Assembly: GCF_003762925.1 (NCBI RefSeq)
Contig: NZ_RJUK01000001.1
Location: 2,356,001 to 2,420,000 of the forward strand
Direction of reading: 5' to 3'
Source of the DNA: Marinimicrobium koreense
GTDB taxonomy: Bacteria > Pseudomonadota > Gammaproteobacteria > Pseudomonadales > Cellvibrionaceae
Length of the DNA stretch: 64,000 nt
Shown: piece after piece, positions 43,769 to 60,259 of the stretch
Numbering within the stretch: position 1 is the stretch's first letter
How the letters are laid out: every line of letters begins with the position of its first letter
Notes under the pieces: generated by a model
The model's input: the letters and a program-made list of their open reading frames with translations, nothing else
Database searches by the model: none
What the model was told of the DNA's origin: nothing
Made by a program: the position numbers and the translations under genes

Positions 43769-43798
43769 AAACACCTCATTATTATCATTGATGTTCCG

Positions 43799-43854: not shown

Positions 43855-46365
43855 TTATGGGCAGAGTCCCTCGCCCTCGTACTGCATTTCCAGACGAACG
43901 TTGTAGAGCTTGACCTGCAACTCTCCGGCCGTGCTCATATAGAAAGGTGACAACACCATCGACGGATCCACGCCGGCCTCAACCAGGCAGCTCAGATCAA
44001 TCGACAGGGTCTGCCAGCTGTTCTCTTCGGCACTGGCCAACCACTCGGTGATATCCACGTTGGCGACGCAGTCCTGGCCACAGCGCATGCCCAGAGCCAC
44101 TGCTGAAGTGGGCGCCTTGACCACATTTACGTCCAGACGCAGATGGGCTTCTCCGGCATAGGCACTCAGATCCACCCGCCCGGAAGAGCGCAGGGCGACT
44201 TCCGCAGGGCCCGCACCGGTCCAGCGAACGGCCCGGCTGTCTTCCTGGACCAGGCGGTCGACCGACTGGATTTCAATACCGGGCAGCTTCGCGCCACTAC
44301 CGGTGACCACACGGGCCCGTTCAGTGACATCGCTGAGCACCCACTGCCAAGGCTCCATCGGACGGTTTTCAAACAGCGGCAACACAGTCTGCGCTTCGGA
44401 TTCGGTCAGGCCACTGTCTTCCGAGAGCGGCTCCAGATTGCCTTCATCGGCGTAAGTCAGACCATAGCCATAGGGGAACTGGGCCGTTTGACCGTCGCCC
44501 TGATTCAGCGGCGTCTGGTCGGCACGGGCCGGCCAGGAAAACGACAGCTTGCCGCTAAAGTCGTGACGCGGCTGACCCTCTGCATCGGCGACCAGCACAT
44601 CGGCCACGCCGACACCTTCAGAGCCGGGCAACCAGGCCACCACAAAGGCATCCGAGGCATTGATTTCCGGGTTGACCCAGAGCGGACGACCGGTCAGGAA
44701 TACCGAGACCACCGGAATGCCCTCATCGCGCAGGCGCTTGAGCAAGGCCAGGTCAGCCTTGGGTTCATAGTCCACATCGGCGCGGTCGCCCTGCATTTCC
44801 GCATAGGGGTCTTCACCGAACACAACGACGGCCACGTCCGGCTTCTCGTCGAAGTTTCCGTCCACATCGAGTTCGACGGATCCGCCGGCAGCGGTCACCG
44901 CCTCGGCAATCCCATCGTAAATTGAGCTGGCTCCGGGGAAGTCGTCATTTTCATTGCCCGTGCCCTGCCAGGTCAGCGTCCAACCGCCGGCCTGCTTACC
45001 GATGTTGTCCGCGCCATCGCCGGCCACCAGAATGCGCTGGGTCGGATTCAGCGGCAGCAGACCGTTCTGATTTTTGAGCAATACCAGACTTTCACGCACG
45101 GCCTGACGGGCGACCGCCCGGTGTTCATCGGCACCGATCAGGTCTTCACGTCCGGCGTAGTGCCGCTCTGAAGGTTTGGCTTTTTCGAACATACCGGCGC
45201 GGAACTTGACCCGCAGGATCCGGCGTACCGCATCATTCAGACGCTCTTCGGAAATCTCGCCGGACTTAACCTGGGCAACGGTATTGGCGTGCAGAGCCCG
45301 CCACTGATCCGGAACCATAAATATATCCAGACCGGCGTTCACCGCTTCAGGACAGGAATCCTGCCGGCAACCATCGACAAACTCGTGGCCATTCCAGTCA
45401 CCCACGATCAGACCGTCAAAACCCATTCGCTGCTTGAGCACTTCATTCATCAGGTAACCGTGGCCGTGCAGTTTTTTGCCCTGCCAGCTGCTGAACGAGG
45501 CCATGACGGTCTGGACACCCGCATCCAGGGCACCGAAGTAACCCGTGCCGTGCACATCGCGCAATTCCAGTTCTGAGAAGGGTGCATCGCCGCGGTCGAT
45601 CCCGCCCTCGGTGCCGCCGTCGGCAATATAGTGTTTGGCCGTGGCCAGCACCCGGCCCTGACCGAAGAATTCGTCGGTGTTTGCCCGCCCCTGAAGACCT
45701 TCCACCATGGCTTTGCCGTAGTCGTAAAGGATTTCCGGATCTTCGGCGTAGGCCTCATAGGTGCGGCCCCAGCGATCGTCCCGGGCCACGGCCAGGGTCG
45801 GCGCGAAGTTCCAGTCCAGCCCCGTGATGGCAACTTCCCGGGCGGTAACCGTGCCAATTTCGCGGATCAGGTCCGGATTGCGGGTGGCCCCGAGACCGAT
45901 GTTATGGGGGAAGAGAGTAGCGCCCTTGACGTTGTTGTGACCGTGTACGGCATCGGTGGCCCAGACAATGGGAATGGCGGCAAAACCATCGCTATCGTCC
46001 ATGGACGCCTCATAGAAACCGTCCGCCAGTGCCAGCCAGTCGTCGGCCGTGGCATTCTTGTCACCGCCGGGGAAGGAACCGCCGCCGTTGAGAATCGAGC
46101 CCAAGTGGTAGCGCTTGACGTCTTCCGGCGTCACATTGCGCAGTTCCGGCTGGATCATCTGGCCCACTTTCTCTTCGACGGACATGCGAGCCAACAGCGC
46201 ATCAATCTCCGGCTCGTACGCCATCGGATCGGCCAGGGGCGTCGGATGCTCCGGCCATAGGTCGTCGCCAGTGGCGCTTTCGGATGGGTTGTCGTTGGTG
46301 GGGCCGTTACACCCCACCAGAACGGCCAGGGCCAAGGGGGCCCAAAGGGTCAGGGACTTCTTCAT
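43855..46365 (-). CDS. GH3 beta-glucosidase lipoprotein with ExoP-like C-terminal domain
   Basis: The 836-residue protein is predicted to release glucose from beta-linked oligosaccharides, completing laminarin breakdown. It has a lipobox (PLALAVLVGC, Cys near 19). The GH3 (alpha/beta)8 domain includes KVGQMIQPEL near 66, TDAVHGHNNVKGATLFPHNI, AKHYIADGGTEGGIDRGDA, and the nucleophile Asp323 in GLIVGDWNGHEF. The second GH3 domain has RILVAGDGADNIGKQAGGWT and EDPYAEMQGDR. A C-terminal module (about 690-836) with DLSAYAGEAHLRLDV and paired Cys resembles the accessory domains of the GH16 protein. The start is set at the signal peptide; the frame extends 24 codons upstream. Confidence 0.94.
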   Translation of the reverse strand: MKKSLTLWAPLALAVLVGCNGPTNDNPSESATGDDLWPEHPTPLADPMAYEPEIDALLARMSVEEKVGQMIQPELRNVTPEDVKRYHLGSILNGGGSFPGGDKNATADDWLALADGFYEASMDDSDGFAAIPIVWATDAVHGHNNVKGATLFPHNIGLGATRNPDLIREIGTVTAREVAITGLDWNFAPTLAVARDDRWGRTYEAYAEDPEILYDYGKAMVEGLQGRANTDEFFGQGRVLATAKHYIADGGTEGGIDRGDAPFSELELRDVHGTGYFGALDAGVQTVMASFSSWQGKKLHGHGYLMNEVLKQRMGFDGLIVGDWNGHEFVDGCRQDSCPEAVNAGLDIFMVPDQWRALHANTVAQVKSGEISEERLNDAVRRILRVKFRAGMFEKAKPSERHYAGREDLIGADEHRAVARQAVRESLVLLKNQNGLLPLNPTQRILVAGDGADNIGKQAGGWTLTWQGTGNENDDFPGASSIYDGIAEAVTAAGGSVELDVDGNFDEKPDVAVVVFGEDPYAEMQGDRADVDYEPKADLALLKRLRDEGIPVVSVFLTGRPLWVNPEINASDAFVVAWLPGSEGVGVADVLVADAEGQPRHDFSGKLSFSWPARADQTPLNQGDGQTAQFPYGYGLTYADEGNLEPLSEDSGLTESEAQTVLPLFENRPMEPWQWVLSDVTERARVVTGSGAKLPGIEIQSVDRLVQEDSRAVRWTGAGPAEVALRSSGRVDLSAYAGEAHLRLDVNVVKAPTSAVALGMRCGQDCVANVDITEWLASAEENSWQTLSIDLSCLVEAGVDPSMVLSPFYMSTAGELQVKLYNVRLEMQYEGEGLCP

Positions 46366-46688
46366 TGTCGGTCTCGCTGTTATTCGTATGGGGAAAAAAG
46401 GCTCCGGGGTCGCCCACGCGGAGCCAAGCTTTTTCAAGGAGAGTCAGAGCGACGCATAACAACCACTTACCAATAAGCAATTCTCAGTGCACAACGTCGA
46501 TCGATAACACGGACGAGTCCCACGCTCGCCCGTATTGCCATTCTTGACCGGTAATGGACAGGGGTCGTCCCACTTTGATGAGAGTGTGAAAGGTGGTGTT
46601 TGCCACTTTTGGGCCGCCGGGAGGCGGCAAAGGTGGGACACGGGTTCCCACCGGTGGCTGGGGCTGAAAGCCCCGGAGGATGCGGGCT
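46366..46688. other. Intergenic region upstream of GH3
   Basis: This 323-base gap holds site A, a second related half-site at 46623-46640, a nested hairpin (GCCGCC-GGGA-GGCGGC, 46613-46628) and a short GGGGCT/AGCCCC hairpin at 46660-46674 just after the deacetylase-like gene. No gene was found in it. Confidence 0.6.
46565..46596 (-). promoter_or_regulatory. Shared glucan-locus motif, site A (upstream of GH3)
   Basis: The plus strand reads TCGTCCCACTTTG (46565-46577), identical over 13 bases to site B at 56238. After 12 bases it is followed by AAAGGTGG (46589-46596). Read in the direction of GH3 it is CCACCTTT-N12-AAAGTGGGACGA. A second related element, TGTCCCACCTTTGCCGCC, lies at 46623-46640 on the minus strand. 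Confidence 0.55.
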
Positions 46689-47498
46689 TCAGTGGTCTCG
46701 CAGGTGGCGCATGATATTTACGAAGCTATCGACCCAGTAGCGCTCGGGATGGGCCGCCAGGTGCTCCAATAAAGCGTTGTGCGCCTCCCGGGAGACCGAC
46801 AGGTAGTCGCCACCGACGCCGTGGAAAGTAAAGTTGGCCATGGTACCCCGGCGGGCCGCTTCCTCGACCACCGCGATCAGCTCTTCGCCGGACACCTCGG
46901 TTGGCACGGCCACCGTAATGCCAAAGCGGTCCAGGGATTCCAGCGAGGGAGTAACTCCTCCGGAACCGATGGATTTGGCCCCGAGAAAGAGCGGCTTCAC
47001 CGGTGTCAGGTAATCCCGATCTCCGACCCGGACATCGCCGCAGGGGGGCGTATAGGTGCGCTCCGTCTCACCATCAATCAGAAACAGAAAGTCATTGGCC
47101 AAGGTGATCTGCTCGGCAAACGCCTCGACCGGGATCTGGCTCAGATCCTGATGCGGCGCCACCCAATCCCGCCCCGGACGCTGCTTGTCGCATTGATGGA
47201 ACAGTGAATGGTTGCCCAACTCATGCCCCTGACCGGCCGCCGCGCGCCACTCGTCCAGACGCTCCAATAACAGCGGGGCCGCCGCCGGCACATAAAAACT
47301 GCCCCGGAACCCATGCCGGTCCAACTCGGGAATCACATAGTCCAACTGGGAGGCGAGCGCATCATCATAGGCAAGATTGACCGCGGCTTTGGCATTGCCG
47401 GGCCAGGAAATCGGTTCGGCCGAAGAAGACACCGGCCACCACAGCAGCAGAGCACACAGCAGCCCGACGGTTTTAAGACGCAAATATCGCATAAACAT
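46689..47498 (-). CDS. Secreted polysaccharide deacetylase-fold protein
   Basis: The 269-residue protein has a signal peptide (LKTVGLLCALLLWWPVSSSA, cleavage near 28). A NodB/polysaccharide deacetylase-like domain has AAVNLAYDDALASQLDYVIP near 38-57, HGFRGSFYVPAA near 62-73 and a His pair in GHELGNHSLFH near 90-100. The first motif has YDD rather than the classical FDD, but the metal-ligand pattern Asp plus H-x3-H is intact. Substrate is unknown; it could deacylate a decorated polysaccharide. It is the sixth gene of the run that starts at SapC. Confidence 0.8.
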   Translation of the reverse strand: MFMRYLRLKTVGLLCALLLWWPVSSSAEPISWPGNAKAAVNLAYDDALASQLDYVIPELDRHGFRGSFYVPAAAPLLLERLDEWRAAAGQGHELGNHSLFHQCDKQRPGRDWVAPHQDLSQIPVEAFAEQITLANDFLFLIDGETERTYTPPCGDVRVGDRDYLTPVKPLFLGAKSIGSGGVTPSLESLDRFGITVAVPTEVSGEELIAVVEEAARRGTMANFTFHGVGGDYLSVSREAHNALLEHLAAHPERYWVDSFVNIMRHLRDH

Positions 47499-47581: not shown

Positions 47582-48394
47582 CTACCACCAGAAGTTGATC
47601 AGAATATTGAGTGGGCCAAACGCGTCCACATTGTGCCACCAGTGCTTGGGCAGGAACAGGGCATCGCCCGGCTCCAGATCTGCGACCTGGGCGGTGGATA
47701 GCGCTTGGGCGAAGCGCGGGTAACGGTTCAGGTCCGGCGCCCGCAGGTCCACCAGGCTGATCGGTCGGCCTCCCGGGGTGTGGGGCGCATCGGCGATATA
47801 CAGATTGTCCTCCTGATCCGGCGGAAACAGGGTAAAGCGCCGACGTCCGGCCGCCACACAGGCGATATTGTCGGCGGCATCGTTGTGAGTGGCCACCCGG
47901 GTCGAGTTCCCCATCCACAGGTTGGGCTTCACTTCCGCACTCACCCCCGGAAGCGTACAGACCTTTTCCAACCCCGGAAAATAGTCGGGAATGGGTGTGG
48001 AGCCGACATAAAAGGCCGCCGGTCGGGGCGCCCGCGACTGCGAGGCCAGAATCTCCAACGCATCCGGCAGAAAACCTTTCATCCGGGTGAAGTTGAATCC
48101 ACTCAGATCATCCGTATAGAACAGCCGCCCGCCCTCTTTGGGACCGGCGATCATGGCCTCCAGAGGCTTTCCGGCATCAAAAGGCAGCAGGTAGCGAGCC
48201 ACCGCCTCCGGCGATTGCCGCGCCGCCGCCACCAGAGGCCAGTGCTGGGCATAGCCTTTCAACAGTACCGGGTGCTGGGGCGGGGCCTGCTGAAAATCGA
48301 CGGTCAGGGCTCGCTCCCGATCCCACCAGGCCACTTGTTGGGCTCGGGGCTCGGTCGGTTGCGACGGTGTGTTCAAGGTAGCAGAGACAGTCAT
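47582..48394 (-). CDS. Cupin-like (JmjC/FIH-type) protein
   Basis: The 270-residue protein looks like a cupin_8/JmjC 2-oxoglutarate- and Fe(II)-dependent oxygenase. It has NLWMGNSTRVATHNDAADNI near 158-177, giving the His-x-Asp metal pair (THND), GRRRFTLFPPDQEDNLY near 183-199 and the distal His in FLPKHWWHNVDAF near 249-261. N-terminal PVLLKGYAQHWPLVAAARQS fits the family. It overlaps the DUF6445 gene by four bases (ATGA). Homologues are commonly found with TonB receptors and tryptophan-halogenase-like genes, but the substrate is unknown. Confidence 0.87.
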   Translation of the reverse strand: MTVSATLNTPSQPTEPRAQQVAWWDRERALTVDFQQAPPQHPVLLKGYAQHWPLVAAARQSPEAVARYLLPFDAGKPLEAMIAGPKEGGRLFYTDDLSGFNFTRMKGFLPDALEILASQSRAPRPAAFYVGSTPIPDYFPGLEKVCTLPGVSAEVKPNLWMGNSTRVATHNDAADNIACVAAGRRRFTLFPPDQEDNLYIADAPHTPGGRPISLVDLRAPDLNRYPRFAQALSTAQVADLEPGDALFLPKHWWHNVDAFGPLNILINFWW

Positions 48395-49116
48395 GAAGCA
48401 TCAAAATCCAGAAACAGGTTAGCCGTCAGTCGACCCCGGGCCGGGTCGGCACTGAGGTCCCGGTCGGGCTCGATCAGCCCGGAGTGCAACAGGTTCCCGG
48501 GATAAATCAATAATCGATCCGGCCGGTAATCCACCTGGTGAATCAACTCAAAATGGGCATCGCTGCCCCGACAATAACGTGCCGGAGGCGTCCCGTGCTC
48601 GCGCATGTGCCGCTCGGCTTCCTGCACAAAATGTGCGAAACGCTCATCGGTAATACGCTCGTAGCCGGTCGGGCGATGGCGAAAGAATCCGGTGCCGCCA
48701 AAAGGGCCCGGATTGAGGTAGTGCATGATCGCAAAATAGAACCCGCGACGGGTGTCGTAATGGGGCACACGCTGCAGCACTGCGAGATCGGATTCCGCCC
48801 GGGTGACCAGGGAGAAAAGCTGATGAATGCACCGGCCCCGGTGTGACGCCGGCACCGCGTACACTTCCCGAATCAGCAGCTCCACCCGAGACAACACCCT
48901 GCGGGTATAATCCGCCGGGAGGTTGGCACGTATCCCCGGATAAGCGGCCTGCCCTTCGCCGGAAAAGGCCGCCCATTCACTGGCGACCCGTTTGAGAGGC
49001 TCCAGGTCGCCCAGCACATAGTCCAGCACGATCACCGGGGTCTGCTCGTCACCGATGCGCACCACGGAAGCAGCCACCTCTCGACTTATCCGCTCCAGCG
49101 CTGTTGCACCCGACAT
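48391..49116 (-). CDS. DUF6445 family protein (oxygenase-like)
   Basis: This 241-residue protein matches the DUF6445 type that accompanies tryptophan-halogenase-like genes. Visible segments are VIVLDYVLGDLEPLKRVA near 27-44, HYLNPGPFGGTGFFRHRPTG near 130-149 and RPDRLLIYPGNLLHSGLI near 196-213. The spaced His/Asp residues suggest a prolyl-hydroxylase-like double-stranded beta helix, which is inference. ATG at 49116 is preferred (AGAGG upstream) over a GTG two codons earlier. It sits nine bases after the halogenase stop and overlaps the cupin gene. Confidence 0.78.
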   Translation of the reverse strand: MSGATALERISREVAASVVRIGDEQTPVIVLDYVLGDLEPLKRVASEWAAFSGEGQAAYPGIRANLPADYTRRVLSRVELLIREVYAVPASHRGRCIHQLFSLVTRAESDLAVLQRVPHYDTRRGFYFAIMHYLNPGPFGGTGFFRHRPTGYERITDERFAHFVQEAERHMREHGTPPARYCRGSDAHFELIHQVDYRPDRLLIYPGNLLHSGLIEPDRDLSADPARGRLTANLFLDFDAS

Positions 49117-49125
49117 GATCACCTC

Positions 49126-50631
49126 TCAGCCGTTGGCCGCCTGGGCCATGGGCATCTTGCAGTAATAGTCGATAAACGCCTGATGGGAAGGCAACTTGGC
49201 CACCAGCTGTTCGGTCGATTGCCGCAGCTTTTTCAGGAAGTCCGCAAGCTCTTTCTCGGTCATCACATCCGCCATGGGATGGTAGGCCTTGGGCGTGATG
49301 CCCTGGCCCATCATCACCTGTATCCACGACTCTTCGCCAAACAGTTCATTTTCAATTTTGAACACCCGGGCCGAATCGCTGAACAGATCAATTCGCTGGC
49401 GCAACGGCGCCGGTATTTCCATGTTTTTGCAGTAGCGCCAGAAGGGTGTGTCGTCCCGTTCGGTGACTTTGTAGTGCAGAATGATGAAATCCCGGATACG
49501 TTCGACTTCGAGCTTGGTCTGCTGATTGAACTCATCGATGTCCGACTGGACCATCTGGCCGCTGGCCGGAAACAGTTGCACGAAGCGAACCAGGCTGCGC
49601 TGAATCAGGTGGATGCTGGTCGACTCCAGGGGCTCCAGAAAGCCGCTGGACAAACCCAGCGCCAGGCAGTTTTTCACCCAGTGCTTGCGCCGGGTGCCGG
49701 TGCGGAACTGAATCGGTTTCGGGTCGGTAATCGGCTCGCCCTCAAGGTTGCCGAGCAGGGTTTCCCGGGCCTGCTCATCACTCATGTAGCGGCTGGAATA
49801 CACCAGGCCGTTACCGACCCGATTCTGCAGCGGAATGCGCCACTGCCAACCGGCATCATGGGCGATGGAACGGGTGTAGGGAATCGGCTCGCCCACGGAT
49901 TCGGTCTGTACCGCCAGGGCGCGGTCGCAGGGCAACCAGTGCGACCAGTCTTCGAAGCCGGCGTTCAGGGACTGCTCGATCAGCAGTCCGCGGAAGCCGG
50001 TGCAATCGATAAAGAAGTCGCCATCCACCTGTTTGCCCGACGCCAATGTCAGGGACTGGATTTCGCCATTGTCCGGGTTGAGGTTCACTTTCTCGATCTT
50101 GCCTTCCACCCGCTCGACACCCAGTTTTTCACTGCGCCGACGCAGGAACGCTGCGTAGCGACCGGCATCCATATGGTAGGCGTAGTTCATCCGGCCATTG
50201 GGCAGAACCGCGAACTTGTTTTTGTGAGACGCCAGCAATTCGGCACAGTAGTCACCGTAAGGATAATCAATGCCTTTGGCCTTTCCCGCCAGCCAGAAAT
50301 GCAGAAAGCTGCAGGCCCAGCAGTCTTTGCCCGCATAGCCGAACGAGTGAATGTATTTGTGATCTTTCTCTCGCCAGTTTTCAAACGAAATGCCCAGCTT
50401 GAAGGTACCGTTCACTTCCGCGAGAAATTCCCGCTCGTCGATATCGAGCATTTTGTGAAAGGTCATCAGTGGCGGGATGGTGGCTTCACCGACGCCAACG
50501 GTCGGGATATCGTCGGACTCCACCAGTTTGATATCGAGATTTTTTCCAAGCGTCTGCGACAGCAGCCCGGCCGCCATCCAGCCGGCAGTTCCTCCACCAG
50601 CAATCACTATGCGTTTGATACTGTCAGTCAT
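49126..50631 (-). CDS. Flavin-dependent tryptophan-halogenase-like protein (canonical motifs)
   Basis: The 501-residue protein has the FAD motif IVIAGGGTAGWMAAGLL at 8-24. The conserved halogenase lysine is Lys78 in FKLGISFENW, equivalent to Lys79 of PrnA-type enzymes. The WxWxIP motif is intact (WQWRIP, 262-267), and the substrate-side GLSSGFLEPLEST near 340 carries the conserved Glu. It should therefore be able to form hypochlorous or hypobromous acid from FADH2, oxygen and halide. No flavin reductase or natural-product assembly genes are adjacent, and the genomic setting is a TonB/glucan locus. Substrate is unknown. ATG at 50631 follows GAGGTGACC. Confidence 0.9.
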   Translation of the reverse strand: MTDSIKRIVIAGGGTAGWMAAGLLSQTLGKNLDIKLVESDDIPTVGVGEATIPPLMTFHKMLDIDEREFLAEVNGTFKLGISFENWREKDHKYIHSFGYAGKDCWACSFLHFWLAGKAKGIDYPYGDYCAELLASHKNKFAVLPNGRMNYAYHMDAGRYAAFLRRRSEKLGVERVEGKIEKVNLNPDNGEIQSLTLASGKQVDGDFFIDCTGFRGLLIEQSLNAGFEDWSHWLPCDRALAVQTESVGEPIPYTRSIAHDAGWQWRIPLQNRVGNGLVYSSRYMSDEQARETLLGNLEGEPITDPKPIQFRTGTRRKHWVKNCLALGLSSGFLEPLESTSIHLIQRSLVRFVQLFPASGQMVQSDIDEFNQQTKLEVERIRDFIILHYKVTERDDTPFWRYCKNMEIPAPLRQRIDLFSDSARVFKIENELFGEESWIQVMMGQGITPKAYHPMADVMTEKELADFLKKLRQSTEQLVAKLPSHQAFIDYYCKMPMAQAANG

Positions 50632-50663
50632 GGTCACCTCGGCTCACTCTGAGCAAGTCGTGC

Positions 50664-52235
50664 CTAAACGGTATGAAGCCCGTGTCGGCGAATATGGTTT
50701 ATCAGGGAGCGGTTGTCCGGAAGCCCTTGCAGCAGCTTCCGGGTTTGCACCCCGTTTTCATGGAAAGCGGTCTGAGCGGCGGCTCCCGATGACCGGACCC
50801 GGCGCTCCAGCGCCTCCGGGGCGGTATACTCCGGGCGCATGCCATAAAGGATGTACTGGTAGCTGGCCGACGGAAACAGCTCGTCCCGGTACAGGCTGTC
50901 GCAGGTCCAGGGGCTGCGCGAGCGCCACAGCAACAGCTGCTCGGCCAGCTCATCGGGCACACTCTCTTCGGCCCGGTGCGCTCGCCAATAATCGGAATCC
51001 TCACGGGTGCTCAGAACATAATGCAGCTTGAGAAATCCGATGATGTTGTCCCAGTGGCGGCAGAAGCGTCGATTGAACCGACGGGCCACCACCGACATTT
51101 CCTCCCGGTTTTCCGGCATCTGCTGGACCAGGAACTGGGCCGAGCGCTCCACCAATACCAACGCGGTGGCCTCCAACGGCTCGATGAACCCGGCCGACAG
51201 ACCAATGGCCACACAGTTGTTCTGCCAGAACCGTTCGCGGTGCCCGGGATCAAACTGAATCAGACGTGGGGACAACTCATCCAGTGTCGCACCGGAGTCC
51301 GTCCCGCGTACATAGGCCTCCAGCCGCTCATACACCCTATCCTTATCGATATGCGCGGATGAAAACACGGCGCCGACACCGCGCCGGGTCGGCAGCGCAA
51401 TATCCCAGATCCAGCCATCGGGATGGGCCGTACTGAGGGTTTGCGATGCGACGGGGCTCAGCTCGCTTGAGTAAGGTACCTGCACCGCCAGTGCGGAATC
51501 GTTGAACAGTACCGGGCGCTGACTGACCCAGGGAACCTGATAGTGTTGTCCGAGAAGACGGGACGCCATACCGGTGCAGTCAATAAACAGGTCCCCAGCA
51601 AGGGTTTCGCCGGACTTCAGATGCAGGTGTTTGATATCACCATTATCCCGGGGCTGAACACCGGTCACCTCTCCCAGGTAATGCACCACGCCCAGATGTT
51701 CCACACAGTGGCGCTGCAGCAGGCGGGTAAATTTACCGGCATCCAGGTGATAGCCGTAGTTCAGGTTGAACGCGTACTCCGGGGTCGCCAGTTGCTTGGG
51801 TGCCCGTCCGTCGTCACATACCGCTGATTGCGGGCTGACCGCATAGGCGAAGGGCAGGTCCCGATGGGCGTAGCGCCAGTGCTCCGCCAGATTCAGGCGT
51901 CCGTATCCGGCAGGCAGCGTGAACGGATGATCATACCGATCGCCGTCGCCGCGGCACCAGTTCTGAAAGCGTGACCCCTGTTTGAAACTGACATCACATT
52001 CGCGGATGAACTCGGATTCCGACAGACCGATGGTCCGCAGGGTTTCAAGCATCGAGGGCCAGGTGCCTTCACCGACACCGATGGTCGCAATATCCGGCGA
52101 CTCCAACAGCGTGATCCGCCGATTGGGTCGGGAGTCAAGACGAGCGTCGGCGGCCAGCAGGCCCGCAGTCAGCCAGCCGGCGGTGCCGCCGCCAACGATG
52201 ACGACGTGTTCGACCGGATTATTGTGCACGCTCAT
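50664..52235 (-). CDS. Second tryptophan-halogenase-like flavoprotein (divergent motif)
   Basis: The 523-residue paralogue keeps the FAD motif VVIVGGGTAGWLTAGLL at 11-27 and the catalytic-type lysine (Lys85 in FKQGSRFQNW). Its WxWxIP motif reads WIWDIA, losing the proline. GLSAGFIEPLEATALVLVE is conserved. Such divergence within the superfamily suggests a different halide, substrate or non-halogenating role. The start at 52235 overlaps the sapC stop by 17 bases; an upstream TTG at 52259 is possible. It precedes the canonical halogenase by about 32 bases, suggesting one operon. Confidence 0.88.
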   Translation of the reverse strand: MSVHNNPVEHVVIVGGGTAGWLTAGLLAADARLDSRPNRRITLLESPDIATIGVGEGTWPSMLETLRTIGLSESEFIRECDVSFKQGSRFQNWCRGDGDRYDHPFTLPAGYGRLNLAEHWRYAHRDLPFAYAVSPQSAVCDDGRAPKQLATPEYAFNLNYGYHLDAGKFTRLLQRHCVEHLGVVHYLGEVTGVQPRDNGDIKHLHLKSGETLAGDLFIDCTGMASRLLGQHYQVPWVSQRPVLFNDSALAVQVPYSSELSPVASQTLSTAHPDGWIWDIALPTRRGVGAVFSSAHIDKDRVYERLEAYVRGTDSGATLDELSPRLIQFDPGHRERFWQNNCVAIGLSAGFIEPLEATALVLVERSAQFLVQQMPENREEMSVVARRFNRRFCRHWDNIIGFLKLHYVLSTREDSDYWRAHRAEESVPDELAEQLLLWRSRSPWTCDSLYRDELFPSASYQYILYGMRPEYTAPEALERRVRSSGAAAQTAFHENGVQTRKLLQGLPDNRSLINHIRRHGLHTV

Positions 52236-52947
52236 GGTGGTTCCGTGATTTGCGCTCAATCAGAGCGCGCATTTTGCCCATGGACGCAATGGTCATATAG
52301 ATGGGCTCCAGGTAGCCGCGCTCGTGCAGGCTCGCGACCTGCTCCGCGCTCAACGCTTTGAGTCGCTCTTCCTGAATGGTATAGAAACCCATCAACTGGC
52401 CGGTGGTGCCGTCTTCCAGAGTGATATCCATGGTTACCGGCTCCAGCAGCTGCAGCTCGGTCAGGGTATCAATGAAGGCGATGTCGTGCTGGTGCCAGAC
52501 ATGAATGGCTTCCAGCATACCGGACACCCGGTCCAGATAATCGGTATTGGCCCCGTGCTCTTCGAACAGACGGGTGCCGGTTTCAGTGTTGACCTTGGGG
52601 TGCTCAACATCGATGTGCATCATGCGGCGCGGCTCGTCGCCGTCATCGCCGGGGTAGGTGCCGATGGAGAAAGGCACCCGCTGCATCATCAAGGGGATGT
52701 AACCGGCATCCCAGCGGTCATCCTGAAGAAAAAGGTTCTCTTCCTGCTCAAGGCCAAACAGAGCCACGGCAAAGAAGCGCCCGCTGTTCGGGTCTTTTTG
52801 AAACAGTATGGGATAGTGAGCCTGTACCGCGCGAAATTCCGGGGAAAAGGTCTGCCCCCACATCACCGCATCGCCGTTCTCGGGCCGGAAGCGCATATCC
52901 ACCCGCAAATCACGGTGTTGTTCACTGTTCAGTAATACGGTTTTCAC
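52219..52947 (-). CDS. SapC family protein
   Basis: This 242-residue SapC-like protein starts with GTG eight bases after AGGAG. Segments include FSPEFRAVQAHYPILFQKDP near 34-53, FAVALFGLEQEENLFLQDDR near 58-77, WDAGYIPLMMQRVPFSIG near 78-95, and MGFYTIQEERLKALSAEQV near 187-205. SapC was named from an S-layer-linked locus, but the proteobacterial members recur beside TonB receptors and tryptophan-halogenase-like genes and have no defined function. No signal peptide is seen. It opens the cassette downstream of the receptor. Confidence 0.88.
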   Translation of the reverse strand: MKTVLLNSEQHRDLRVDMRFRPENGDAVMWGQTFSPEFRAVQAHYPILFQKDPNSGRFFAVALFGLEQEENLFLQDDRWDAGYIPLMMQRVPFSIGTYPGDDGDEPRRMMHIDVEHPKVNTETGTRLFEEHGANTDYLDRVSGMLEAIHVWHQHDIAFIDTLTELQLLEPVTMDITLEDGTTGQLMGFYTIQEERLKALSAEQVASLHERGYLEPIYMTIASMGKMRALIERKSRNHHERAQ

Positions 52948-53098: not shown

Positions 53099-56000
53099 TT
53101 AGAAGCTGTAGCGAGCGCCGATGTTGTAGCGAGCGTAGCCCTGGTAGAAACCCAGAACCTGCTCATCAGCACGGCCGAAGTTGCGACCGCTCTCTTCGGT
53201 GAGGTTCAAGCCCTCGAAGAAGACGGACAGATTATCGGTCACGTCGTAGCTTACGTTCAGGTCCACCTGACTGTACTCATCCACATAGATCGGGTTGTTG
53301 CCCGTTCCGGAAGCGGTTGAGGCCAGGAAAGAATCCCGCCAGTTGTAGGCAATCCGCGCCTGCCAGCCGTCTTTTTCATAGAAGGCAATCAGGTTGGCGG
53401 TATCACTGACACCGGTAATCGCAAACTGCGGGTCACGCAGCACCATGTTGTCAAACTCGGTGCTTTCATCTACCAGAGTGTAGTTGGCAATCACACCAAA
53501 TCCAGTATCCCAGAAGTTATGCTGAACCGCCAATTCCCAACCGTCAATGTCGACAGTCTGGTCAGAGTTGGCCGTTTCAGTCACGTCAAACGGAGAGTTG
53601 GGATCCTCACCGGGAATACCGACAATGATGATATTGCCGCTTCCGTCCATATAGGCGGTTTCGGGATCAGGGAAGTTATCGAAGATGTACTGGCGAATAG
53701 CGCCCACATCGTTCGGCGCGATACCACTATCGATGGCCGCTTGGGCGCGTTCACCCAGTGCCGGATGTGGGGTGTTGGCCAGAGGCGCTTCTTCACGCAC
53801 CACACGTGAACCCAGGAAGTTTTCCACTTCTTTCTGGAAGTAACCCACGGACACATAGCTCGCTTCCCCGTAATACCATTCCGCCGACAGATCGAAGTTG
53901 TCAGACTTGAACGGCTCCAGACCGGGGTTGCCGCGGCTGGCGGTACCGCCATTGACCCGTACACCCTGGCTGTAGCTGGTTCCACCACGCAGGTCCAGCC
54001 AGTTGGGACGAGCGATGCTCTGGCCGTAAGAAGCACGCAGGATCACATCCTGAACCACTTCCAGGCTCAGATCCAGCGAGGGGAGCAGGAAGTCATAGTC
54101 ACCGCTATCAATCACGGAGTCAGCGTCGCCGACAGTCGGCATGGTGAACTCGTTCGCGGCTACCCACTCGATCGGACCGTAGCTTTGGGCCGTCGCTGGA
54201 GTGCTGACTTCGGTCGACTCATAGCGAACGCCGGCATTGACGCCCAAGGGCATTTCGGCCACAAAGGTATCCCAGTTGAACTGGACGTAGGCGCTATCCG
54301 AGTCTTCATAAATCTCATTGAACTGATCCGGAGCGGCAGCGCAGTAGAACGAACCACCTTCGGCACAGTCGGCCGGACCGGAGCCGTCATCGTAATTGGC
54401 GGCAGCGAAATCACGAACATCCTGGAAGTTGAATGCAAAACGCTCATTCAGCGGCATGGTATTGGAACCGCCCAGGAACGCCATCTCTTCCGAAGTGGTG
54501 TCCGCATACTCTTTGTCGAAGCGATCGAGGATTGTCTCACGGGTAAAGAAGTCGGCAGGCATATCACCGGCCTCACCCAAACCACCCCAAGTGTCACGCT
54601 GGACGTTGGAGAAGGCTGAGCGATAGTCGCTTTCAGTGCGGGCAATACCGAACTGCAGACGCATGGCGTCGTTGAATTCCCACTCACCGTCGAGCTGAAC
54701 CTGGTCGATTTCGTGCTTCATCTGGCTGTTACGGAAGAAGCTACCGGACACCTGCAGGTCTTCTGTGCGCAGGGAGCTTCCGCCGGCACCGTCGACGATA
54801 TCCAGGATCAGGACCGGCATATCACCTTTGACATTCAAGGTGGTCTGGTCACGCACATAAGCGGAAACCGCGATACCGACGCTGTTGCCGTATGGGTTGT
54901 TAGGCCGGGCTTCTGCCTCAGAGCTATGCACATCCAGAGACAGAGTCAGCGGATCGATGGGATTCCACTCGACATTGAAGCCGACGGAGTTGTTCTCGTA
55001 GAGTGAGGACTGCTCACCGACACCAAACGGCAGGTCACCGTTGGTCATGTCTTCGGAGTACAGCAGCGGAGTCTGAACCGAAGGCGACTCATTGTCAGTG
55101 AAGATGGTGCTTTGACCGCCAAAGTTGAACCAGCCACCTACGTCGTTGTACTCAGAGTCGATCTCGTTCTGACTATAGGTATAGTCCAGCGTGGTGGTCA
55201 GATCTTCGTTGGGCGCAAACTGCAAGGTCAACTGACCGTTGGTCCGCTTGCGCTCAAACTCGGTAAAGGCGTAGCCCATCTGTTGCGGTGTGGAGTACAC
55301 ATCTTCCGCTGCCGGCTGGTTCTGGTGATTACCGTTGGCGAAGTCGACGCCACCCCATTCGTTGGTGACACCGGGGGCACCGCTCCAATCCTGCACTACT
55401 GTGCCCGGGAATGAGCGCCAGCCAGTACCGATTTGAGCGGCAGCGGACCCGCCTTGGCGCTCCTGGTAGCTGGCAGTGACTGCCACACCGAACTTACCGT
55501 CGGCATAGGTATCGGTGAAAATGCCGGAGATTTCCGGGGTCAGCTCACTATCCACCGATGATTCATCCATAACGCCCTTGACGCCGATTGAGGCGCGAGA
55601 GTCCAGCTCCAGCGGACGCGGGGTCAGGATATTGATGGTAGCACCCATACCACCCGGGGGAACGTCGGCGCGGGCGGTCTTGTACACTTCAACGCCGGTC
55701 ACACCTTCCGAAGCCAGATTGGCAAAGTCAAAAGAGCGGGAGCCGGAGGCGACAGTGGCTTCCAGAGTCGCGCCGGGCATCTGACGACCGTTCAGAGTCA
55801 CCAGGTTGAAGTCCGGCCCCAGACCACGAACGGTCACTTTGGCCCCTTCACCGTCGCGACGGTCGATCGAGACACCGGTGATCCGCTGAAGCGATTCAGC
55901 AAGGTTGGTATCCGGGAACTTACCGATGTCTTCGGCGGAGATCGCATCCACGATACCGCGGGAGTCCCGCTTGATATCCATGGCACGAGTCAAACTGGCC

Positions 56001-56140
56001 CGAATACCGGTAACCACGATTTCTTCCAGCATTGCCTCGTCACCGTCTTGGGCGTGGGCACCGCTGGCCAGGCCGACCATCGCGGAAGACGCGACGACGG
56101 AGGCGATAAGCTTGCGCTTGAAACTGCTGTTGTTGGTCAT
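53099..56140 (-). CDS. TonB-dependent outer-membrane receptor (carbohydrate type)
   Basis: The 1013-residue receptor has a signal peptide (ending GAHAQ near 31) and a TonB-box-like segment EEIVVTGIRASL near 39-50. The plug domain has DAISAEDIGKFPDTNLAESL and VTVRGLGPDFNLVTLNGRQM near 106-126. A 22-strand-type barrel ends in a terminal Phe (RYNIGARYSF). The ISAEDIGKFPDTNLAESLQR style is that of the large proteobacterial (Caulobacter/Xanthomonas/Cellvibrio) oligosaccharide receptors. Position between GH81 and the SapC cassette suggests uptake of beta-glucan oligosaccharides, which is inference. No SusD partner exists, as expected for Proteobacteria. Confidence 0.93.
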   Translation of the reverse strand: MTNNSSFKRKLIASVVASSAMVGLASGAHAQDGDEAMLEEIVVTGIRASLTRAMDIKRDSRGIVDAISAEDIGKFPDTNLAESLQRITGVSIDRRDGEGAKVTVRGLGPDFNLVTLNGRQMPGATLEATVASGSRSFDFANLASEGVTGVEVYKTARADVPPGGMGATINILTPRPLELDSRASIGVKGVMDESSVDSELTPEISGIFTDTYADGKFGVAVTASYQERQGGSAAAQIGTGWRSFPGTVVQDWSGAPGVTNEWGGVDFANGNHQNQPAAEDVYSTPQQMGYAFTEFERKRTNGQLTLQFAPNEDLTTTLDYTYSQNEIDSEYNDVGGWFNFGGQSTIFTDNESPSVQTPLLYSEDMTNGDLPFGVGEQSSLYENNSVGFNVEWNPIDPLTLSLDVHSSEAEARPNNPYGNSVGIAVSAYVRDQTTLNVKGDMPVLILDIVDGAGGSSLRTEDLQVSGSFFRNSQMKHEIDQVQLDGEWEFNDAMRLQFGIARTESDYRSAFSNVQRDTWGGLGEAGDMPADFFTRETILDRFDKEYADTTSEEMAFLGGSNTMPLNERFAFNFQDVRDFAAANYDDGSGPADCAEGGSFYCAAAPDQFNEIYEDSDSAYVQFNWDTFVAEMPLGVNAGVRYESTEVSTPATAQSYGPIEWVAANEFTMPTVGDADSVIDSGDYDFLLPSLDLSLEVVQDVILRASYGQSIARPNWLDLRGGTSYSQGVRVNGGTASRGNPGLEPFKSDNFDLSAEWYYGEASYVSVGYFQKEVENFLGSRVVREEAPLANTPHPALGERAQAAIDSGIAPNDVGAIRQYIFDNFPDPETAYMDGSGNIIIVGIPGEDPNSPFDVTETANSDQTVDIDGWELAVQHNFWDTGFGVIANYTLVDESTEFDNMVLRDPQFAITGVSDTANLIAFYEKDGWQARIAYNWRDSFLASTASGTGNNPIYVDEYSQVDLNVSYDVTDNLSVFFEGLNLTEESGRNFGRADEQVLGFYQGYARYNIGARYSF

Positions 56141-56307: not shown

Positions 56308-58752
56308 TCAGCCCCCGTGTGACGGCACTTTCCGGATACCGAACGCCCCCGGGGCGACCTTCAGCCGAACCCCGTCCGAGAAGTTTACAATCCGCTCCGT
56401 ATTGCCAAAGTTATAGGCCAGATAGGTCGTCTGCGCGCCCGACTCGAAAACCACGGCGGCCGGATAATCGGCCGTCACCTGGCCGGCCCCCGAGCGCAGA
56501 TGCCCCAACTCCGTCCAGGCGTGTACCCACTGATAGGTATGGGCCCGGGTTTCGCCCTCCTCCGGCACATACTCAAAACCGGTCTCGGTCATATCCGCCA
56601 GTGCCGCATCGGCGTCGGTCATCGCCCAGATGTTCCACCAGATATCCCGCCAGTGCCCATCCCTCAGACCGGAAGGCTTGCCATTGCCGGACTCACTCAG
56701 CCCCAGAGCCACATAGTCAGCCAGGTAATCCGGGTACTGCCCGAGGTGAAGCACCAATGGGCTGAGCGGCAGCCCCTGAATGCCCAGAATGTGAGCATGA
56801 GCCTCGCTGAACCAGGTGGTAAACACATGCCCGGCCCCCCAGACAATGGAGGTAGTGAGTTTGTCGTAGGCATCGGGGAAGTTCCGGTAGATCGCCGGGC
56901 GCTCGCGATAGCCGTCAATGTCATTCCAGTACTCCCAGAAGGCGGCGGCCGTGGAGGCGTGCAGGTACACGCCCCGCTCCACCAGCTCTGGCTGTTCGGT
57001 CACCAGCCCGTACAACACCACGGCGCCGTAGGCCGTGGCCGCCTCGGAGGTCGACTCATTGTTATTTCCGAGCAGATAGTTGGCGGCCCCCGATGCCCAG
57101 GAGAAGCCTAGTGCGGGATCAAAATACCGCAGGTAGGGGAACTGAGGGTCGTCACGACCCGCTGCGAAGTCCCGGATCAACAACTCGACCATGAGGCCCC
57201 AGCGGTCTTTGGTGCACCAGCCCGGGTCGACCCGGCATATCTCCGCTGCGGCGCGGACAAAGTAGCCGTAATGAAAGTGGTGATCATTCAGAGCCTGGTG
57301 GGTGCCGAACGACTCGTGTACTCCCAGCACCGTATTCCATCGGTCGTCATAAACAAAATACCGGGTCTGCTCGGCGGGATCGACGGTAAACCAGTCTTCC
57401 AGCTCGGATTTCAGCCAATCAATCAGACGATTGGCCTCTGGCTCAAGCCCCTCTTCCCGGGCCAGTAGCGCCAGCTCGGCCACCTTGCCGTAATTCTTAC
57501 CGGCAAAGTAGGTATCGGTCGCCCGGTTCCAGTCCTGCGGGTCCTGGGCCATAAAGTCATGCACCAGTGCCCGCAGCCGCTGCGGGTCATAGTCACCCAG
57601 CCCAGCGGGGAGCCCGGGAAGCACACCGACAGAGGGCAGCTCGTACGCGAAGCTTCCCGTCACTGCAAACCGCATGACACCCCGGGCACTGCGCACCTCG
57701 TAGTCGGTAAGCGCTTGCTTACTGTTTTTCCATTGCAGCGGCTGAAGTCCCGCCAGGGTTTTTACTGGCTCACTCCGATATCGATACTGATGGGAGACGG
57801 TCACCCGGTAGCTGTCCGGATCGACCCGGTAGTCCACCTCAACCTCATCCACGGGCTGCCGGGCGTGGGCGATAAAATCGCCAATCATGGCGGCCGAAGG
57901 GCCGGATTGCGGGGCCGGGAGCCAGGTCAGGGTAAAGTGGCTATTGCGGCTGGCGGCAGTGATCTCCGACCCATTGACCCCGGTAAACTCGGTGGTCCCG
58001 TGTCCGGTCAGCAAAAAGTGGTTCCGGTTCCCCGACACATCGGTCCAGAGCCCCAGGGTATTGCCTTGCCGATAGAAGATGCCTTTGCGCTCACCGTCCG
58101 GCTCCAGGGTCCGAATCTGCAGGTCGCCGCGAAACACACTGAGGTACACATAGGGGGAGCCTTGTACAAACGTCGCCGACATCACCGGGCGGTGGCCATT
58201 GCGCCACTCCAGAGACACGGTGCCGTCACTGTAGTCCCTGACATAGGCATCGAGGCGATCAAACTGGCTATTGGCAACGGCAATACCATCGAACACCTCG
58301 CTCAGGGGCTCAGGCACCGGGTAAGTAACGCCCTTCTCCTGAACCCCCAGACCGGCGGGCATTCCCATCAGGCGCATCCCGCGCTCAGTAATTCTTGCCA
58401 TCAACGGGTCCGGGGTAATGTGCCCGGGGCCGTCGGGGTCATCCACCGCATGAGCACCAAAGAAGGTGACGTTGCCCCACCAGCGGTGGGCCATGGTGGG
58501 CTTTCGGGCCGCCGGAGCGACGACGTTCGGCTGCAACGGCAGTGGCTGCACCATACCGCCACAGGAGGGAACCTGCGCTTTCACCACCCCGGCGCTGGTC
58601 AGCCTGGCCTGGCCACGCTCCTCCTGGCATTGGTAGCTTTGCGGCTGAATGCTGAGACTGACCGAGCCGGCACCATGCTCCCCCGGTGGCTGGCAACCCG
58701 CCAGCGCAACGCCTAACACCACCACACTGAATACCACTCTCGCCCGTGACAC
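56308..58752 (-). CDS. GH81 endo-beta-1,3-glucanase lipoprotein
   Basis: The 814-residue enzyme is predicted to cleave beta-1,3-glucan backbones outside or at the outer membrane. It has a lipobox (VLGVALAGC, Cys near 18). The GH81 domain shows RWWGNVTFFGAHAV near 62-75, LNDHHFHYGYFVRAAAEI with the putative catalytic acid Asp490, FPYLRYFDPALGFSWASG near 545, and NNNESTSEAATAYG with Glu566 and Glu570, the expected base region. GTG at 58752 is chosen because a GAGGG site and then the signal peptide follow; the open frame upstream is not conserved in character. It is the first gene of the minus-strand cluster, divergent from the ECF sigma gene. Confidence 0.92.
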   Translation of the reverse strand: MSRARVVFSVVVLGVALAGCQPPGEHGAGSVSLSIQPQSYQCQEERGQARLTSAGVVKAQVPSCGGMVQPLPLQPNVVAPAARKPTMAHRWWGNVTFFGAHAVDDPDGPGHITPDPLMARITERGMRLMGMPAGLGVQEKGVTYPVPEPLSEVFDGIAVANSQFDRLDAYVRDYSDGTVSLEWRNGHRPVMSATFVQGSPYVYLSVFRGDLQIRTLEPDGERKGIFYRQGNTLGLWTDVSGNRNHFLLTGHGTTEFTGVNGSEITAASRNSHFTLTWLPAPQSGPSAAMIGDFIAHARQPVDEVEVDYRVDPDSYRVTVSHQYRYRSEPVKTLAGLQPLQWKNSKQALTDYEVRSARGVMRFAVTGSFAYELPSVGVLPGLPAGLGDYDPQRLRALVHDFMAQDPQDWNRATDTYFAGKNYGKVAELALLAREEGLEPEANRLIDWLKSELEDWFTVDPAEQTRYFVYDDRWNTVLGVHESFGTHQALNDHHFHYGYFVRAAAEICRVDPGWCTKDRWGLMVELLIRDFAAGRDDPQFPYLRYFDPALGFSWASGAANYLLGNNNESTSEAATAYGAVVLYGLVTEQPELVERGVYLHASTAAAFWEYWNDIDGYRERPAIYRNFPDAYDKLTTSIVWGAGHVFTTWFSEAHAHILGIQGLPLSPLVLHLGQYPDYLADYVALGLSESGNGKPSGLRDGHWRDIWWNIWAMTDADAALADMTETGFEYVPEEGETRAHTYQWVHAWTELGHLRSGAGQVTADYPAAVVFESGAQTTYLAYNFGNTERIVNFSDGVRLKVAPGAFGIRKVPSHGG

Positions 58753-58850
58753 GTCGCCCTCTCTATTGTTATGTACCGCTGCCGGAGATCCCGACGCGGG
58801 TAACCGGTTTACCGGCCCTGGAGGACATAGAACCTGAATGGACGTAGCTC

Positions 58851-58885
58851 GTCGCCCCACTTTTCACCTTTGCTAAACTGGGACA
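58851..58885 (-). promoter_or_regulatory. Shared glucan-locus motif, site C (GH81 / sigma-factor divergent region)
   Basis: The plus strand reads GTCGCCCCACTTTT (58851-58864), one base different from the GTCGTCCCACTTT of site B. It is followed by AAACTGGGACA (58875-58885), an imperfect inverted copy (TGTCCCAGTTT on the other strand). It lies about 99 bases before the GH81 start, the same distance as site B from its gene, and about 113 bases before the sigma-factor start. Confidence 0.55.
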
Positions 58886-58997
58886 CAGAAGATGGCATTC
58901 TCTGCCGATGCAACTTTTTGCGAAGTCACGCGTATCGGTGTCGGGGAGCATTGTTTGTAACCGCTCAATCGCCATCCACTTCACGATCGGACCGTCT

Positions 58998-59573
58998 ATG
59001 GACTCAAACGACGACACTCTGGTGGCGCTGATCGGCCGCTGCGCCATCAATGATCAACGGGCACTGAAAGAGCTGTTCGAACGCCTCGGCGGCTACCTGA
59101 ACACCGTCGCCTACCGCATCGTGGGTTCGGAGGCGCTCAGCCAGGAGGTGCTCCAGGACGCCTTTGTGCAGATATGGCAAAACGCCGCCCGCTACCGCCC
59201 CGATATCGCCCGCCCGGTCACCTGGATCACCAGTATTGTCCGCTACCGGGCACTGGATGCATTACGCCGGGAGCAAAAACACCTGGCCCACCGGTCGCAA
59301 CCTGAGCGGGATAACGATCCCCTGGAGTCCGTTGCGGCTGTCGGTGACCTGGAGCAGGGGGTCCAGCAGTCAGAAATCCGGCGCTTTCTGACTCAGTGCT
59401 TCGCCAGCCTTAACGAGCGAATGCAGAACGCCATTGCCCTGGCTTACCTTGAAGGCTGGTCCCGGGAAGAATTGGCCCAGCACTTTGCCACCAATACCAA
59501 CACCATCAAGTCCTGGCTACACCGGGGCGCAGAGAGATTACGGCGATGCCTGGAAGCACGAATCGGACAGTAG
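58998..59573 (+). CDS. ECF-type RNA polymerase sigma factor
   Basis: The 191-residue sigma-70-family factor has only regions 2 and 4. Region 2 includes LKELFERLGGYLNTVAYRI, SQEVLQDAFVQIWQNAARYR and PVTWITSIVRYRALDALRRE near 70-89; region 4 includes LNERMQNAIALAYLEGWSRE and TNTNTIKSWLHRGAERLRR near the end. The layout and the overlapping RskA-like gene match the SigK-type ECF group. ATG at 58998 fits the family; the frame is open 30 codons upstream. It is divergent from GH81 and may control its own operon or the glucan genes. Confidence 0.92.
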   Translation: MDSNDDTLVALIGRCAINDQRALKELFERLGGYLNTVAYRIVGSEALSQEVLQDAFVQIWQNAARYRPDIARPVTWITSIVRYRALDALRREQKHLAHRSQPERDNDPLESVAAVGDLEQGVQQSEIRRFLTQCFASLNERMQNAIALAYLEGWSREELAQHFATNTNTIKSWLHRGAERLRRCLEARIGQ

Positions 59574-60259
59574 AGCCCAGCACGCGTGCCTTCGAGTACG
59601 CACTGGGCACCTTACGAGGCAGCGAACGCCGGGCCTTCGAGCGGGCCATGGCTCGGGACCCGGCGCTCGCCCGTGAGGTTCACGACTGGGAGGAGCAACT
59701 GATGGCCCTGCAGGATCCCCATGCGGATCGCCCCCCGGCGCCCGGCACCTGGGAGCGGATTGAGCAGCGTCTCGCCGGCAGCCGGCAGCGACCGCGCCGC
59801 AAGCACACCTTTCTGTCGAGTTGGGGCTGGGGTGGAGCGGTCGCCGCGCTGCTGTTGGTACTCGCTCTCCCAATACTACTCATATGGAAAACCGGCGCCC
59901 CGCAAGTACCCAACAGCGATTATGTCGCCGTTCTGGCCGACACCGAAGGCCAGCCGACGCTCACCGCACTGACGCTCCAGGGGGGTGAAACCCTTTGGCT
60001 GCAATGGGACGAGTATCCGCAGACTGAGGGCAGTCTGCAGCTGTGGGCTGTGTCCCGGCGGGACGGCCAGGCCCGCTCCCTGGCGGTTTTTGACAGTGCC
60101 GAGCGGCGCACTCTGGCTCTGGACCAGGCAGCCCGGCGCCTGATCACCGACGCCGAGTACCTGTTGCTCACTGAGGAGCCGCCCGGCGGCTCGCCCCTGG
60201 ACGAACCCAGTGACCGGACGCTGGCAAGAGGTGCCTGCGTGCGCCTGTCGACGAGCTAG
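59546..60259 (+). CDS. RskA-like anti-sigma factor
   Basis: The 237-residue membrane protein overlaps the sigma gene by 28 bases, a common arrangement for an ECF factor and its inhibitor. The N-terminus (about 10-80; AFEYALGTLRGSERRAFERA, VHDWEEQLMAL) matches anti-sigma-K-type sigma-binding domains. One TM helix (WGGAVAALLLVLALPILLIW, about 93-112) leads to a periplasmic RskA domain with YVAVLADTEGQPTLTALTLQ and LQLWAVSRRDGQARSLAVFD. No zinc-binding His-Cys motif is present. It probably holds the sigma factor at the inner membrane until a periplasmic signal releases it. Confidence 0.88.
   Translation: MPGSTNRTVEPSTRAFEYALGTLRGSERRAFERAMARDPALAREVHDWEEQLMALQDPHADRPPAPGTWERIEQRLAGSRQRPRRKHTFLSSWGWGGAVAALLLVLALPILLIWKTGAPQVPNSDYVAVLADTEGQPTLTALTLQGGETLWLQWDEYPQTEGSLQLWAVSRRDGQARSLAVFDSAERRTLALDQAARRLITDAEYLLLTEEPPGGSPLDEPSDRTLARGACVRLSTS

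Follow-up and report, generated by a model that had tools for sequence, protein, structure and literature searches.

Recurrent linkage of flavin halogenase-like cassettes to TonB-dependent receptors in Marinimicrobium koreense and other proteobacteria suggests a receptor-modifying system

A cassette of five genes, encoding SapC, two flavin halogenase-like proteins (FDH2 and FDH1; such genes are called FDH here), DUF6445, and a Cupin_8 protein, was analyzed in a 64,000-nucleotide (nt) stretch of Marinimicrobium koreense DNA (contig NZ_RJUK01000001.1, positions 2,356,001 to 2,420,000). This full stretch is called the window. The cassette and its TonB-dependent receptor (TBDR) share one co-directional run, and halogenases of this type were repeatedly found behind such receptors. 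This suggests that the receptor-linked sets finish the receptor chemically rather than make an antibiotic. The explanation we favor, which is plausible but somewhat short of probable, is that the cassette is a cytosolic system dedicated to the co-encoded receptor, which it modifies oxidatively prior to export.

The genome of the strain (3.85 Mb, 6 contigs) contains 15 proteins of the halogenase family PF04820, four SapC proteins, three DUF6445 proteins, and 24 receptors above the TIGR01782 cut-off. Gene maps placed 14 of the 15 halogenases in receptor-led runs on the same strand: nine TIGR01782 receptors are followed by 13 of them, and the remaining one, at L028 (L-numbers denote named loci), follows a receptor scoring below the family cut-off. 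The fifteenth (L029, 8386-9897) is located on the opposite strand and adjoins another FDH. When five relatives, all the same-family genomes in a 145-genome sample of the order, were included, 50 of 58 PF04820 proteins followed a TIGR01782 receptor on its strand at a distance of up to 7.5 kb, compared to about 1.1 expected (limits of 1e-3 in the own genome and 1e-20 in the relatives). Furthermore, 23 of these 50 were only 90-225 bp behind the receptor, as measured between profile-match ends.

The same arrangement was found outside the family. The best 80 of 224 loci from a DUF6445 scan (gamma-, beta-, and alphaproteobacteria) contained a receptor in at least 61 cases, a halogenase in 52, SapC in 34, and Cupin_8 in 31. 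The receptor counts are lower bounds because the profile was built from TIGR01782 receptors; it missed at least L129, which has two receptors of other kinds. A receptor was present in 49 of the 52 loci with a halogenase; in 44 it was co-directional and at most 7.5 kb upstream, and in five it was otherwise placed. The remaining three loci were cut by contig ends. A further 12 of the 80 loci had a receptor without a halogenase. The gene make-up was highly variable (29 distinct gene strings), and some orders recurred, most commonly TBDR-SapC-cupin-FDH1-DUF6445 (9), TBDR-FDH2-SapC-DUF6445 (6), and TBDR-FDH2-DUF6445 (5). On annotated plasmids, a receptor was located upstream of the halogenase in 6 of 6 records chosen from the 24 best matches; together with two controls, these made up the eight records examined out of 60. 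The order in Sphingobium RAC03, TBDR-SapC-cupin-FDH-GH16-LacI-MFS-GH3-GH43 (GH, glycoside hydrolase), closely resembles the window. The two control halogenases, one in a pyrrolnitrin-type cluster and one in a cluster from Streptomyces, had prnB-type genes or genes for flavin reductase and anthranilate as neighbors, and neither stretch contained a receptor.

Among 114 genomes sampled from the class, PF04820 was detected at 1e-40 in five genomes and SapC in 16; the five halogenases outside the own genome included two in cassettes and one contig-edge fragment. DUF6445 itself is rare: within the order, eight of the 145 genomes contain it, four of which belong to the own family. The first-pass annotation had stated that TonB-linked cassettes recur in proteobacteria, and had taken random placement as the outcome that would speak against a receptor-linked system. 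Recurrence proved strong, and therefore random placement was contradicted for the halogenases. Within these lineages, halogenases are tightly linked to receptors. The link is not general for SapC and DUF6445, each of which is also found free of cassettes.

The cassette had also been described as part of a beta-glucan locus. The window enzymes agree with this (GH81, GH3, and GH16), but the link is with the TonB receptors of several glycan loci and not with beta-glucan as such. Linked receptors neighbored GH13 at L027, GH18 and GH20 at L029, GH20/GH19 at L025, GH32 with SusD at L028, and, on plasmids, GH13/GH97 as well as GH95 with an alpha-N-acetylglucosaminidase. We read these sets as pointing to beta-glucan, alpha-glucan, chitin, fructan, and fucosylated glycan, and a beta-glucan-only role of the cassette was not supported by this variety. 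Among 84 flank proteins (up to three per locus, from 29 of 35 chosen loci), GH3 was the commonest family (nine, with Exop_C in eight), followed by families without a glycan role, such as GGDEF (six). The glycan enzymes vary while FDH persists; the receptor is the constant partner. Given the position of cassettes within glycan utilization loci, the substrate could instead be the ligand that is taken up, or aromatic decorations on it (phenolic groups of plant or algal glycans). However, this is very unlikely, because FDH persists across changing glycan enzymes, because the cassette enzymes look cytosolic (no signal peptide was seen by eye), and because, to our knowledge, aromatic groups are absent from laminarin, maltodextrin, chitin, and fructan.

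Two further gene arrangements were observed among these loci. A 1303-residue protein at L025 (L025:1873-5784) fuses GH20, an SMP-30-like region, and a GH19 chitinase. At L028 (L028:8834-16894), a receptor, a TPR-2-oxoglutarate (2OG) oxygenase fusion, and FDH1 lie beside SusD and GH32, so that a SusD-bearing locus also has a halogenase.

The PF04820 profile covers the whole length of both FDH1 and FDH2. FDH1 contains all of GxGxxG, the catalytic Lys, the Glu, and WxWxIP (as WQWRIP), which we take to be the hallmark motifs of flavin-dependent tryptophan halogenases. The Lys and Glu are present in FDH2, and WIWDIA stands where WxWxIP is expected. The catalytic Lys and WQWRIP of FDH1 had been noted in the first-pass annotation, although its Lys78 is residue 80 in the GTG-started open reading frame (ORF). 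Among FDH1 relatives, the Lys was found in 67 of 76 and the Glu in 73 of 76, and all 29 full-length FDH2 relatives kept the Lys, Glu, and W-x-W. After 6y1w, the next matches of FDH1 in the PDB were 9luq (556 bits) and 6frl (450 bits). The best match of FDH2, over residues 13-528, is 2pyx, a solved protein that bears the name 'Tryptophan halogenase' and is presumably from Shewanella. In a FastTree phylogeny, FDH1 was largely separate from FDH2, and several branches were long.

The structures 6frl and 6y1w are BrvH and Xcc4156, as stated in PMC7336383, and form the closest-solved group for FDH1, with the catalytic Lys and Glu in common. According to the two papers, the substrate site of these enzymes is open to solvent, free tryptophan is not accepted, and a peptide substrate is suggested, the native one being described as unknown (PMC7336383, PMC5945002). 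They differ from the cassette enzymes in being described as halogenases of indole derivatives, and the term TonB does not occur in the main text of either paper. By its description, MibH is similar to our proposal in chlorinating Trp only inside a peptide; it differs in that this substrate is the peptide natural product deschloro NAI-107 (PMC5945002). Its identity to Xcc4156 is given as 26% in PMC7336383.

A second precedent is QhpG, a halogenase-like flavoprotein reported to dihydroxylate a peptidyl Trp while the target protein is still in the cytoplasm and not yet exported (PMC7876137). QhpG differs in that it hydroxylates, for the cysteine tryptophylquinone cofactor. The FDHs might likewise be protein-tryptophan hydroxylases or cofactor makers of the QhpG or LodB kind, leaving a redox-active rather than a halogenated residue on the receptor or another envelope protein. 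Besides the precedent, this would fit weak NCBIfam matches to QhpG (29-38 bits) and LodB (19-25 bits) and the frequent loss of the Lys in the second gene of three- or four-FDH runs. However, the scores are far below the equivalog cut-offs of 240 and 400, the halogenation Lys and Glu are retained in most FDH1 and every full-length FDH2, and relatives are described as brominating in vitro (PMC5945002, PMC7336383). We consider this explanation clearly unlikely.

Ten of the 12 full-length copies listed without the aligned Lys occupied the second position of a three- or four-FDH run. These Lys-less second halogenases were observed at L023 (L023:11781-13223, in the own genome), L089, L100, L104, L105, L106, L112, L123, L127, and L130, with S, R, T, A, or V instead. 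Judged by their residues, they are possible pseudo-halogenase partners.

The cassette had been proposed to combine two flavoproteins with two Fe(II)/2OG-type proteins. Sequence motifs support the flavoproteins and both putative oxygenases, with a predicted fold in addition for DUF6445. Residues H121, D123, H213, and R231 of DUF6445 were invariant across 64 aligned sequences, which are the window protein and 63 of 69 listed relatives. The DUF6445 model has the double-stranded beta-helix fold with the HxD...H triad and Arg of 2OG/Fe(II) oxygenases. In VIA-align, it matched OGFOD1 (Z 13.9, 185 residues aligned, 3.6 A), P3H1 and mimivirus lysyl hydroxylase (both 13.3), PHD2 (12.9), and Pseudomonas P4H (12.5). 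The prolyl hydroxylases OGFOD1, PHD2, and P4H thus share the predicted fold and triad, at an identity of just 11-14%. On these grounds, the prediction of DUF6445 as a 2OG/Fe(II) enzyme resembling prolyl hydroxylases has high confidence. The small-molecule enzymes SnoN and HygX scored Z 12.6, level with the lower prolyl hydroxylases; therefore, the fold alone leaves the substrate undecided.

The Cupin_8 protein matches JMJD5 and FIH in sequence, and its H170-x-D172 and H254 align to the H-x-D and distal H of JMJD5. It differs from JMJD5/FIH-type oxygenases in being bacterial and receptor-linked. At L028, the TPR-2OG oxygenase (PF13759) precedes FDH, and thus three oxygenase families accompany receptor-linked FDHs. 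SapC gave a clear profile match and a confident model. It had no PDB match by sequence, and by fold the best Foldseek E-value was 0.32 and a second comparison returned no chain with Z of 2 or more, which does not establish a new fold.

Some members of these families were located apart from halogenases. One SapC gene of the own genome stands apart from any cassette (L016 / G000:C1:540860-541531). At L067, L069, L072, L077, L079, and L095, DUF6445 without a halogenase lies downstream of a large receptor, and L067 also has GH16 and a GH42-like protein; the DUF6445 oxygenase may serve receptors on its own. In Alphaproteobacteria, L087, L088, L102, L103, and L107 contain DUF6445 with no receptor or halogenase detected within 10 kb by the profiles used.

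In the mechanism proposed for a modified receptor, the substrate of the enzymes would be the receptor polypeptide or some portion of it, modified in the cytosol prior to export. FDH1, and possibly FDH2, would halogenate, or hydroxylate as QhpG does, at least one aromatic residue through the open active site. DUF6445 and Cupin_8, both relatives of protein hydroxylases, would hydroxylate further side chains, and SapC, which has no recognized fold, may recognize or hold the receptor. We infer the receptor as substrate, the residues concerned, the order of steps, and the role of SapC. Open sites without free-tryptophan activity, the QhpG precedent, the receptor linkage, the varied glycans, and the protein-hydroxylase-like partners together make the receptor polypeptide the most parsimonious candidate substrate.

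The receptors were examined for traces of such a modification. The cassette label switched 14 times on the best receptor tree and at least 11 times by starred branches, so that a marked residue might show up. A total of 64 linked and 32 free rows were compared, and 23 rows with other labels were dropped; for five of the linked rows the label depended solely on SapC and cupin, and for rows L163-L192 only 1.5 kb flanks were used. None of 108 letter-columns enriched in linked receptors had a median p below 0.05 over nine independent contrasts, which have little power, and eight reached p 0.05 in some pairing, uncorrected. The best columns of note, V63 (median p 0.125) and S68 (0.19) at the start of the plug, were not significant and are a weak lead. 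A GVVDAIS-type stretch at the plug start (residues 62-73 of the window receptor) occurred in 23 of the 64 linked and 0 of the 32 free rows. Its contrasts hardly differ, which fits a single clade, and thus the motif probably reflects one clade. Within the own genome, a comparison of nine linked and 15 free receptors likewise gave no residue that marks the linked ones. No solved relative of the window receptor was found at 1e-5 with phmmer.

Receptor and FDH1 distances were correlated (r 0.815 over 25 loci, 24 and the window), and in the own genome eight paralogue pairs gave a Mantel r of 0.65 (p 0.009). The partial correlation with receptor distance was highest for FDH1 (0.364), followed by SapC (0.197) and DUF6445 (0.114). 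It is highly improbable that the linkage has no common chemistry, with halogenase-like genes hitch-hiking alongside receptors through transfer or common regulation, in the service of general redox or stress functions. The variety of gene strings and the single genes found alone would fit hitch-hiking, but the catalytic residues are conserved, the divergence is correlated, and some gene orders recur in spite of the many changes of cassette status on the receptor tree.

Several results weigh against a modified receptor. Besides the missing diagnostic residue, much of the distance correlation is expected from co-inheritance alone, and a modification made in the cytosol would need to leave receptor export possible. 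Many receptors do without the cassette: 15 of the 24 TIGR01782 receptors in the own genome, and 66 of 101 in the own genome and five relatives, where 35 carry a halogenase (the 101 include one own row that scored below the family cut-off and a frame that was split into two pieces). The cassette families also occur without receptors: two of the five class-sample halogenases outside the own genome had none within 1.5 kb, no cassette gene lay within 1.5 kb of SapC in 16 of the 18 class-sample loci from other genomes, and 16 of the 80 DUF6445 loci, some on short contigs, had neither receptor nor halogenase by the profiles used. The aligned Lys is missing in nine FDH1 and all three full-length FDHx. 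FDH2 clusters in the tree with PrnA, a halogenase from Streptomyces, and two proteins not linked to receptors, and the best Foldseek matches of the DUF6445 model included the small-molecule oxygenases PolD (best E-value, 1.1e-05) and HygX.

Some of these points would fit a cassette that makes or modifies a small molecule, such as an indole derivative, short peptide, signal, or inhibitor, released or taken up on receptor induction, the receptor link being regulatory. The clustering of FDH2 with PrnA, the FDHs away from receptors, and the small-molecule oxygenases among the DUF6445 fold matches favor this, as does the slow bromination of free indole by BrvH (PMC5945002). However, the usual biosynthetic context of free-tryptophan halogenases, which is not strictly defining, was absent, unlike for the two control halogenases. 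As the first-pass annotation had stated, no nonribosomal peptide synthetase (NRPS), polyketide synthase, flavin reductase, or tryptophan-pathway family was detected in a Pfam scan of 26 of the 32 window ORFs of at least 180 aa outside 40.5-58 kb. The gaps between receptor and first gene in nine own cassettes contained short ORFs in four cases; none was common between loci as a candidate precursor peptide of the kind seen in clusters for ribosomally synthesized and post-translationally modified peptides. Finally, 15 copies in one genome behind different receptors are a poor fit for a metabolite. We consider a small-molecule role unlikely.

In the open-access literature searched, a tryptophan halogenase together with SapC and TonB was not found, nor was DUF6445; subscription papers or preprints may hold the link. 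Carbohydrate utilization loci with TonB receptors (PMC1790865) are alike in receptor and carbohydrate genes, but their main text is without 'halogenase' or 'SapC', and PMC2996990 contains no halogenase term. Both a tryptophan halogenase and a TonB-dependent receptor are named in an oil metatranscriptome study (PMC11337851). The module is real and recurrent, and consists of known enzyme families in a receptor context that was not met in the open literature searched.

In the window, the ten genes of the run extend on the minus strand from 58860 down to 41606 (Table 1). All five cassette ORFs were found on the minus strand in the place given by the first-pass annotation, with agreeing Pfam names, and co-direction with the receptor, GH81, GH3, and GH16 was confirmed. 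Its 4-base overlap, of the cupin and DUF6445 genes, is exact, whereas its 17-base overlap of SapC and FDH2 depends on an ATG start at 52235, since the longer TTG ORF gives 41. The ATG is probably the start of FDH2. A TonB gene is located at 12494-13399, and extracytoplasmic function (ECF) sigma factor and anti-sigma factor genes lie at 58908-60259 on the plus strand, divergent from the GH81-receptor run. At L080 (L080:3074-4138), a FecR-like protein is encoded directly upstream of the cassette receptor, hinting at surface signaling control.

Table 1. Genes of the co-directional run in the window, in order of transcription.
Feature	Position	Strand	Evidence
GH81 glycoside hydrolase, first in run	56308..58860	-	Pfam PF17652, 7.5e-44
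TonB-dependent receptor (TonB-Xanth-Caul, TIGR01782), proposed cassette target	53099..56140	-	NCBIfam 647.5 bits vs cut-off 310; plug and barrel
SapC (PF07277), proposed adaptor or receptor-recognition protein	52219..52947	-	Pfam 2.5e-67; AlphaFold2 pLDDT (predicted local distance difference test) 95.7
FDH2, flavin halogenase-like, 2pyx type	50664..52259	-	Pfam Trp_halogenase (PF04820) 2.5e-117; best PDB 2pyx, 569 bits
FDH1, flavin halogenase-like, Xcc4156/BrvH type	49126..50637	-	Pfam Trp_halogenase (PF04820) 1.4e-191; best PDB 6y1w (Xcc4156), 649 bits
DUF6445, predicted Fe(II)/2OG dioxygenase, prolyl-hydroxylase-like fold	48391..49122	-	Pfam 2.1e-74; pLDDT 95.1
Cupin_8/JmjC-like Fe(II)/2OG oxygenase	47582..48394	-	Pfam 3.4e-60; JMJD5 3e-17, FIH 3.2e-14
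Polysaccharide deacetylase-like protein, 3' of cassette	46689..47498	-	Pfam PF01522, 6e-08
GH3 glycoside hydrolase with Exop_C domain	43855..46437	-	Pfam
GH16 glycoside hydrolase with Exop_C-like domain	41606..43774	-	Pfam PF00722 9.1e-19, PF18559 1.5e-14

With some reserve, we extend the proposal to many proteobacteria, which may finish their TonB glycan receptors with dedicated flavin halogenases and protein hydroxylases that, guided by SapC, would halogenate or hydroxylate residues of the receptor while it is nascent. The receptor-bound context, seen dozens of times, provides a concrete candidate for the native substrate of BrvH/Xcc4156-type halogenases. If the proposal is true, this would be an outer-membrane protein maturation of a kind not met in the literature searched, and it would supply the missing native role of these halogenases. 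Furthermore, halogenation and hydroxylation would join the bacterial routes of receptor maturation, and protein-acting halogenases would be gained for chemistry.

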